Shown piece by piece: positions 29,229 to 32,200 of a stretch of DNA of 64,000 nucleotides. The stretch's first letter is position 1; each line of letters opens with the position of its first letter. Source of the stretch: Chrysoperla carnea (lineage: Eukaryota; Arthropoda; Insecta; Neuroptera; Chrysopidae). The stretch spans positions 101,426,368 through 101,490,367 of the forward strand of contig NC_058337.1 of NCBI RefSeq assembly GCF_905475395.1, read 5' to 3'. The translations under genes were made by a program, and so were the position numbers. The notes under the pieces are model-generated. The model saw only the letters and a program-made list of their open reading frames with translations, made no database searches and had not been told where the DNA came from.

Positions 29229-32200
29229 ATGAGTCGATATAAATCGTCATTAAATTTAATTCAAGAGCGTTCATTCGTTGCTTGGACCAGGTAAAATTTT
29301 AAAATAAATACTCGAACTATAACCTGTACAAATTTTCAAATTTATACGTGGAATTTTAGGGCTGAAAAGAAACGATGGCTTCTAACTTTAATGATAGGAA
29401 CAGCTGCAGCGTATGCAACACGTACATCGTTACCAATTTTATTACCGGCGATCAGCAAAGAACGACATTGGAGCAAAAAAGAATCGGGTGCTTTATTATC
29501 AGCCTTTTTTTGGGGTTACACGTTAACACAAGTAGCTGGTGGATACTTGAGTGATAGAATAGGTGGTCTTAGAGTAATATTTATCTCGGCTATTGGATGG
29601 TCGTTATTGACTTTCACAATGCCCTTTAGTATTAGGTTTATAGAAGATCCCGATCAATCGGTACAGTTTATTGTGCTGATACGAATCTTGAATGGTGCAT
29701 TTCAAGGTGTTCATTTTCCAAGTATGATTAGTTTAACTAGTCAAAAATTACCTGAAATGGAAAGATCATCATTTTTTAGTGCTGTTACTGCAGGATCGGC
29801 GATTGGTACATTAGTTAGTGGTACTTTAGGCTCTTATTTTTTAGAAACGTTTGGATGGCCTATTGTTTTTTATATGCTAGGATCATTAGCATTTTTATGG
29901 GCTTTACTTTTGCGGTAGGTAGTTTTATCAATGATAATTCAATGTAATAAATCTATATCTAATCGGAAAAGGACCCTTAACTCTGATTAAGACGCCACAT
30001 ATCTCAATTGTTGGAATTTTCTCAAACAACCACTCTACCCTAGTCAAATAATTTACATTCACATTTACTTCGCTGAATAAAAATTTAACCCGATCATCTT
30101 AGTCAAAATAAGTAATCAATCTCGGAATCTAACGGAATAAGCTAATTTTTTGTACAAACCTTTATTTTGATAGTACACATGTTGTTTCAAAAGTCACAAA
30201 TGATAACGTGTTTGTGTCGTTAGATATTCAAGGTCAAAGGTATCGAAAATCTGTTTTTTGTTAATATCTCGTTTCTTTTGCGTTCAATCGTGTTAGCATT
30301 TATTATAAACTAGCTGTGAACTACCCGCTTTGCTGGGCAACATCCCCACTTGCACCCCTCCCTCCACATTTCCTTGCGTGGGATAACAGTTTTGTAATGT
30401 ACACGTCATGCTCTTTTATTTGATACCCCACTTAGATATATTTGTAAATATTCGATAATTCCTTCCCACTTTCTCGCTACACCTTTCTACCCTCCGAAGG
30501 TTAAAAGTAGATAAAACCAATAGATCTTTGAAGCTGGTTGTATATCGTGTCAATATTTGAGCTTAATCGATGCACAACTTTTTTAGTTTTTGAAGCATAT
30601 CCTTTCAACCCCTATTTCAACCCCTTACTCTACTATAATATGGATGTATTATACATAAAAACCTTCCTCTTGAATCACTCTATCTAATAAAAAAAACCGC
30701 ATCAAAATCCGTTGCGTAGTTTCAAAGATTTAAGCATACAAAGGGTTTTTGAAGCATATCCCTTTCAACCCCTATTTCAACCCCTTACTCTACTATAATA
30801 TGGATGTATTATACATAAAAACCTTCCTCTTGAATCACTCTATCTATTAAAAAAAACCGCATCAAAATCCGTTGCGTAGTTTCAAAGATTTAAGCGTACA
30901 AAGGGACATAGGGACAGAAAAAGCGACTTTGTTTTATAATATGTTAAAGTTGTAGAGGATAAAATTTTCTACAAATTTTGCCTGAAACTTTTTTTTTGTA
31001 TGTTGAACCGTTTTTGAAATAGAGGACGCAGAAGGTGTTGCGCTAAGCTTAACGTACTTTAGTTCTGGGTCAATATTTACAAATGTAAGGTATTAAATAA
31101 TCGTTTAAGTAATATTTAATGAATAATTATGGACAAAAACCGCATAATAGACTGAGATTCACGATTGACCCTATCTATTATACAATTTTTTCACTTAATT
31201 ATCGATTAAATATTACTTAAATAGTTTTTTAATACTATATATTTATAAATATTGACCCTGCACTAAGGTACGTATAGCTTCGTGCTCCATCTTCTGCTCT
31301 CTCTGTTTCAAAAACGGTCCAACGTATAAAAAACGCCTTCGGACAAACATTATCTCAGCGATATGTACATTAGTGCAGGGTCAATATTTATAAATATAAG
31401 GTATTAAATAATTATTTAATTAGTATTTAATGAATAATTAAGGAAAAAAACCGCATAATAGACTAGGTTTCACGATTGACCCTGTCTATTATGCGGTTTT
31501 TTCACTTAATTATTCATTAAATACTAATTAAATAATTATTTAATATCTTTTATTTATAAATATTGACCCTGCACTAAGGTACGTATCGCTGAGATGATGT
31601 ATGTCTGAAAGCTTTTTTTATACGTTGGACCGTTTTTGAAATAGAGGGTGTATACGTACCTTAGTGCAGGGTCAATATTTATAAATATATGGTATTAAAA
31701 AACTATTTAAGTAATATTTAATCGATAATTATAAGTGAAAAAATTGTATAATAGATAAGGTCAATCGTGAATCTCAGTCTATTAGGTGGTTTTTGTCCAT
31801 AATTATTCATTAAATATTACTTAAACGATTATTTAATACCTTATATATTTGTAAATATTGACCCAGAACTAAAGTACGTTAAGCTTAACGCAACACCTTC
31901 TGCGTCCTCTATTTCAAAAACGGTTCAACATACAAAAAAGTGTTTCAGGCCAAACTTGTAGTAAATTTTATCCTCTACAACTTTTATAATAAATGCTAAC
32001 ACGATTGAACGCAAAAGAAACGAGATATTAACAAAAAACTGAATTTCGATACCTTTGACCTTGAATATCTAACGACACAAACGCGTTATCATTTGTGATT
32101 TTTGAGACAACATTTGTACTATCAAAATAAAGGTTTGTACAAAAAATTAGCTTATTCCGTTAGATTCCGAGGTGAAACCCTAGGATGATTGGAGTAATTT

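Follow-up and report, generated by a model that had tools for sequence, protein, structure and literature searches.

Background

The described systems that come closest to the element reported here are foldback transposons of Drosophila. Galileo, Newton and Kepler of Drosophila buzzatii, which belong to the P superfamily, share with it long inverted repeats, non-coding copies and arms that are similar within a copy; in the part of the published account drawn on here, two Galileo copies have arms that are >99% identical within a copy and ~7% divergent between copies, and two others have a within-copy divergence of ~6% that was ascribed to ectopic recombination (PMC2775673). Tetris/DAIBAM of Drosophila virilis is likewise a foldback element of the non-autonomous type, in which the number of ~220-bp internal repeats varies; the sections of its description used here place these repeats in tandem in each arm and also in satellite-like arrays, and report a deletion derivative as well as possible homogenisation in two of three complete copies (PMC4079207). 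The lacewing family differs from Galileo, which duplicates 7 bp of its target, in duplicating 3 bp and in having the termini TA...TA, and it differs from Tetris in that its ~214-bp units are themselves palindromes that alternate with inverted spacers, with no arrays in the copies read.

Two further comparisons are of interest. The MITEs of the PIF/Harbinger and CACTA kinds are, like the family described here, small, non-coding and dispersed, and they duplicate 3 bp of target. The PIF/Harbinger duplication is classically TWA, and a duplication of 3 bp speaks for kinds such as PIF/Harbinger or CACTA and not for Tc1/mariner; the lacewing terminal motif TA[A/C][C/T]CC.. is one that we take to be unlike the usual ends of either. 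The hpRNA loci of Drosophila resemble the lacewing palindrome in that a long self-complementary transcript would be expected from it, and differ in that the palindrome belongs to a repeated mobile family whose pairing is not conserved in old copies.

As explained below, the comparison of copies makes it very likely that positions 30086-32196 of the window (the whole stretch of 64,000 nucleotides that was analysed) represent one copy of a dispersed, non-autonomous, foldback-type DNA transposon family of Chrysoperla carnea, and that this copy is a probably neutral passenger of an intron. A survey of titles and abstract openings, with subscription literature mostly outside its scope, yielded no published description of this family, which might be undescribed.

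The palindrome and its host intron

The palindrome is located on chromosome 1 of Chrysoperla carnea, within a 2,631-nt intron of a gene for an MFS transporter. Four coding exons joined through GT-AG splicing form an open reading frame of 427 aa, and the spliced protein matches the Pfam family MFS_1 (E 5.4e-51) and has sialin and the vesicular glutamate transporters as its nearest solved structures, which bears out the placement of the palindrome in a transporter intron by the preliminary description. The element occupies 80% of this intron (2107/2631, computed with ends 2 nt narrower on each side), and no ORF of at least 60 aa lies within the window copy. Downstream of the transporter gene, at 35150-35327, there is a diverged relative (74%) of the arm of the foldback element.

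The nested two-kilobase palindrome that had been described is real, in that six pairs of inverted arms with 90-99% complementarity can be recognised: the outer arms (189 nt, 97%), 30946-30996/31934-31984 (90%), 30992-31087/31844-31939 (98%), 31083-31197/31732-31846 (97%), 31196-31276/31651-31731 (99%) and the hairpin at the centre, 31301-31468/31479-31646 (92%). Units U1 and U3 are mirrored about U2, as had been proposed, around an axis at ~31473. The near mirror symmetry of the intron holds when an insert of ~636 bp (~30310-30945) is set aside, but the structure as a whole is asymmetric since the insert is present only in the left arm; and the borders of the palindrome, which had been put at 30121 and 32171, have to be moved outward by 35 and 25 nt to the real ends of the element at 30086 and 32196 (Table 1). 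With the insert omitted, aligning one half of the element to the reverse-complemented other half gives 673 identical columns out of 778, at an alignment score of 578.5 (20 shuffles reach at most -27).

An RNA fold of the element without the insert is predicted to consist of a 510-pair duplex and a 164-pair central stem at -1038.7 kcal/mol; 8 mononucleotide shuffles fold at -268.9 to -288.6 kcal/mol, and 8 stretches taken from elsewhere in the window at -244.8 to -336.4 kcal/mol. In this prediction 674 pairs are formed in 1471 nt, the long arms being most of the element, and in a predicted fold of the whole intron both helices are retained and the insert branches off to the side. The duplex would very probably form if the intron is transcribed. 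It had been presented as a duplex of the host intron, which is right as to location, but it is a property of the transposon and not of the intron.

Table 1. Parts of the foldback element and of its host gene, in window coordinates
Feature	Position	Strand	Basis
MFS transporter gene (SLC17/sialin-like)	29229..33653	+	coding exons 29229-29290, 29360-29914, 32546-32762, 33204-33653; 427 aa
Host intron, 2631 nt	29915..32545	+	donor GTAGGTAG, acceptor ATTTTTATTCAG
Target-site duplication ATT, left	30083..30085		identical 3-mers outside terminal dinucleotides in 16/19 complete copies
Foldback MITE, complete: 2111 bp, or 1475 bp with nested repeat removed	30086..32196	+	copy comparison, target-site duplication, empty site
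5' terminal inverted repeat TAACCCGATCATCTTAG	30086..30102	+	copy comparison; 28-mer starting with it found genome-wide
5'-specific segment	30103..30120	+	on 5' ends, absent from 3' ends compared; gap in half-half alignment
Left outer arm	30121..30309	+	97% complementary to 31983-32171
Nested dispersed repeat, ~636 bp	30310..30945	+	within left arm; no counterpart in right arm
Inner arm segment S, left	30946..31050	+	copy architecture
Palindromic unit U1	31056..31269		inverted repeat and copy architecture
Palindromic unit U2, element centre	31367..31580		inverted repeat and copy architecture
Palindromic unit U3	31658..31875		inverted repeat and copy architecture
Inner arm segment S, right	31881..31984	-	copy architecture
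Right outer arm, uninterrupted	31983..32171	-	97% complementary to left outer arm
3'-specific segment GTGAAACC	32172..32179	+	comparison of copy ends
3' terminal inverted repeat (CTAGGATGATTGGAGTA on + strand)	32180..32196	-	copy ends; family 28-mer 3' terminus genome-wide
Target-site duplication ATT, right	32197..32199		3-mer comparison

The terminal inverted repeats are 17 bp long and imperfect: the two ends in their usual form match at 14/17 positions, and those of the window copy at 13/17. The nested repeat in the left arm contains a ~160-bp tandem duplication and is itself dispersed, as among 40 scored candidates genome-wide 27 match it at 90-97% over most of its length and 8 at 95-99% over part of it. 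The right arm serves as the empty site for this insertion, and any target duplication there is no more than 2 bp (AA) and ambiguous. The element is of an ordinary kind and well delimited, a MITE of foldback type that landed in the intron and later received the nested repeat.

Other inverted repeats occur in the window. They include a foldback-like structure at 59273-59736 (arms 171 nt, 86% complementary), a structure of ~3 kb at 53389-56448 that has outer arms of ~280 nt and inner pairs and is perhaps a foldback or TIR element, and a perfect 41-nt hairpin with a loop of 8 nt at 7890-7979.

Copies of the family in the lacewing genome

A search of the genome for the arm sequence had been suggested as a way to tell a transposon from a unique duplication, and the dispersed copies that it detected point to a transposon. 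Candidates at first look numbered 1,767 for the outer arm and 870 for the inner part, and 40 of each were scored. With 30121..32171 as the query, 66 matches were obtained from 40 scored candidates, with near-complete structures on C6 and C5; among these candidates, the complete structures elsewhere in the genome have 86-88% identity to the query. Alignment of the copy ends revealed two constant termini outside the original borders, of which one reads TAACCCGATCATCTTAGTCAAAATAAGTAATCAACCTCGG.. and the opposite one ..CCGAGGTGAAACCCTAAGATGATTGGAGTA. At up to 2 mismatches, the 28-base 5' terminus is found at 236 genomic places and the 28-base 3' terminus at 360, as compared with none for the reversed control of either.

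We defined as complete those copies among loci L001-L064 in which both ends could be recognised, which gave 20 rows and, with L063 represented twice, 19 elements; those other than the window copy are 276-1505 bp long. The order of parts among the matches listed is, from the outside in, terminal repeat, end-specific short segment, outer arm, S and U units, the last being palindromes of ~214 bp that are spaced by inverted pieces of S. Three units are present in 5 complete copies (the window copy, L002, L004, L050 and L064), two in 6 (L011, L033, L046, L056, L058 and L063) and one in 3 (L012, L034 and L049), and the remaining 5 (L019, L028, L040, L041 and L043) are without a unit match longer than 100 bp. 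Since the copies hold from 0 to 3 central units, the nested palindromes are a variable trait of the family, one that can be likened to the ~220-bp repeats of Tetris.

We considered that unit U might be a separate small MITE captured by a larger one, and rejected this idea on finding that two of the U matches, selected for having no listed terminus beside them (L065 and L066), also lie inside family copies. Among the matches listed, two 3'-type ends face outward within 836 bp at C1:8652948-8653783, and this may be a copy that carries the 3' type of end twice. Two segments ~18 kb apart, C6:2926926-2929553 and 2945260-2947885, carry an identical set of family matches, which suggests a local duplication.

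Evolution of the arms within and between copies

The arms could be compared in 14 copies in which both were usable, with a precision that is limited by the small number of copies and by partly gapped arms. The mean distance between the two arms of a copy is 0.092, as against 0.131 to the arms of other copies (n=14), a difference that age alone could explain. For both arms, the partner in the same copy is the nearest of all rows in 3/14 copies (the window copy, L004 and L033), with a tie in L041 and with several of the nearer rows being short; in L046, L058 and L064 at least one arm is, on average, as close to the arms of other copies as to its own partner, or closer. In a tree of the arms, those of one copy are sisters in 6/14 cases, namely L004 (100/99), L033 (98/94), the window copy (94/89), L041 (94/84), L002 (93/92) and L011 (90/75), of which only L004 and L033 are starred pairs, the bootstrap being still unsettled; the arms of the other 8/14 copies are apart or unresolved.

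The arms are not sorted by side in the tree, where the 5'/3' label takes 12 changes as compared with 10.8 when labels are shuffled. There are 32 rare non-consensus bases that the two arms of a copy have in common, whereas 300 re-pairings of the arms give 6.1 on average and never more than 16, and the outermost ~33 bp differ between the two ends in the copies whose ends were aligned. We read these observations as homogenisation of the arms of a copy, either in source copies or at transposition, with the signal in old copies buried under later independent changes; two Galileo copies have a similar pattern.

The arm comparisons bear directly on the most serious of the rival explanations, in which the locus is a functional source of hairpin RNA and its intronic duplex has been kept because Dicer-2 siRNAs silence the family or a host target. 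The predicted duplex of 510 plus 164 pairs would suit such a role. A precedent for small RNAs from elements of this kind exists in Aedes aegypti, for which 15.03% of the transposon-matching endo-siRNAs map to MITEs, although the authors, in the part of their report relied on here, favour foldback dsRNA over regulation as the source (PMC3259105). Against this explanation, the palindrome belongs to a dispersed transposon family, the left arm of the window copy is interrupted by the 636-bp insert, and there is no sign that pairing has been kept: own-arm distances are 0.11-0.19 in 7/14 copies, with up to 45 changes in one arm only. In older copies the two arms have diverged from each other, which speaks against selection for pairing, and we regard a functional hairpin-RNA locus as unlikely.

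Target-site duplication and empty sites

The length of the target-site duplication separates the foldback family from another rival, according to which it is a Tc1/mariner-type MITE with a TA target duplication. This was the initial reading, and it drew on the presence of TA at the 5' border in 19/19 and at the 3' border in 17/19 complete copies. Outside these terminal dinucleotides, however, 16/19 complete copies, including L011 with its 3' border of TG, are flanked by identical 3-mers, and only 1/19 by identical 4-mers, the calculated chance of a matching 3-mer being ~2.4% per element at about 30% G+C. The duplicated 3-mers are varied and not confined to TWA (ATT, TGA, TTT, CAA, TAC and others); the three copies without a perfect 3-bp duplication are L028, L050 and L063, the last with ATG/GTG.

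L063 is located in another dispersed repeat and is the only copy for which empty sites are available; genome searches with the joined flanks of the window copy and of L019 returned none. Besides the flanks of L063 itself, its joined flanks match 40 other rows, every one of which spans the junction. The filled site reads ATG-TA...TA-GTG, and a single ATG is present at 7/8 of the paralogous empty sites examined. The best-scoring of these, L070, has the sequence ATGTAG, which is compatible with a TA duplication too if another difference of 5 bp is allowed for (1/8); the eighth, L071, reads AATAAAG. The 3-mer matches outside TA and the single ATG at the empty site led us to abandon the TA-duplication reading, which we now hold to be very improbable. 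We conclude that TA is the end of the element and that 3 bp of target are duplicated, one base of the duplication in L063 having changed later.

The preliminary description had entertained a foldback transposon as one origin of the palindrome, and this option is supported by dispersed copies with the same ends, by their 3-bp target duplications and by the paralogous empty sites of one copy. It had also held that many dispersed copies with target duplications, together with a lack of small RNAs or editing, would mark an ordinary transposon; of the two, the dispersed copies with target duplications are present. A unique inverted duplication of intron sequence in place would account for the mirror structure, but it is already refuted by the complete structures elsewhere at 86-88% identity with common termini and target duplications, and retains next to no probability. 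An artefact of assembly or of long-read palindromes is just as implausible, for although inverted chimeras are known to occur among long reads, many loci have the same architecture, and the asymmetric ends and the insert in one arm already refute it.

Possible sources of the transposase

The foldback transposon family would be moved by cut-and-paste, with a transposase supplied in trans by a separate element. The source superfamily would be one that duplicates 3 bp, perhaps PIF/Harbinger or CACTA. As for the long arms and the nested units, they might have grown through inverted duplication and hairpin-templated repair, and the latter process could also keep the arms of one copy alike.

An autonomous partner was not found with the transposase profiles PF13358 (DDE_3, 97 matches) and PF13359 (DDE_Tnp_4, 73 matches, of which two places were read); few elements were read, and all have other ends. 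A mariner within the window, at 18287-19583 on the minus strand, has 33-nt inverted ends (94%) and an open 351-aa transposase ORF, and 10 further DDE_3 matches have a 361-aa open frame that resembles it; it was rejected as the partner because its ends, TAACAGGTTGGCTGATAAG.. and ..CTTATCAGCCAACCTATTA, differ from those of the family. We also rejected three short DDE_3 relatives (L067-L069), which have ~540 bp in common and inverted ends of ~38 nt that are presumably mariner-like by motif; family parts occur only in L067, as a separate copy ~0.75 kb off. The DDE_3 matches are unevenly placed, with 19/97 clustered within a single megabase close to one end of chromosome 1 (C1:138.36-139.34 Mb).

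At C1:101067631, the 3' end, arm, S and U of the family adjoin a gene set of THAP, DDE_Tnp_4 and YqaJ. This DDE_Tnp_4 element was considered as the autonomous form and rejected, since a second copy of it is without family sequence and the element has ends of its own, AGGGCTTTTCATCAC..; it is merely adjacent to the foldback family, a truncated copy of which lies ~145 bp away. The THAP/DDE_Tnp_4/YqaJ transposon (SWIM below cut-off), which we take to be ISL2EU-like, extends from ~714 to the end of L078 and on into L079 to ~548, with a second copy in L080. Because the two copies are 99.7% identical over 4089 bp, this transposon has probably been active recently.

Significance of the family

The sequence of the window copy bears no sign of use by the host. 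Most likely, the element is spliced out along with the intron as a neutral passenger. Some siRNA output from it is plausible, and would be a by-product. One might go further and suppose that arms are rewritten from each other through the hairpin at or after transposition, sparing the outermost ~33 bp that the transposase would read as left or right, that copies capable of forming near-perfect dsRNA would persist in this way, and that siRNAs from transcribed introns would silence the family in trans; we offer this as a speculation that has a small chance of being correct, slightly better than that of a functional hairpin-RNA locus.

The striking 2-kb palindrome can be explained as a mobile element with exact borders, and a special host structure is not needed to account for the intron. 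What most deserves further attention is the apparent co-evolution of the arms. The family may serve as a test case in two respects: for intronic foldback elements as a standing source of endo-siRNAs beyond flies and mosquitoes, and for the way in which the arms of a foldback transposon might stay alike while its extreme ends stay different.
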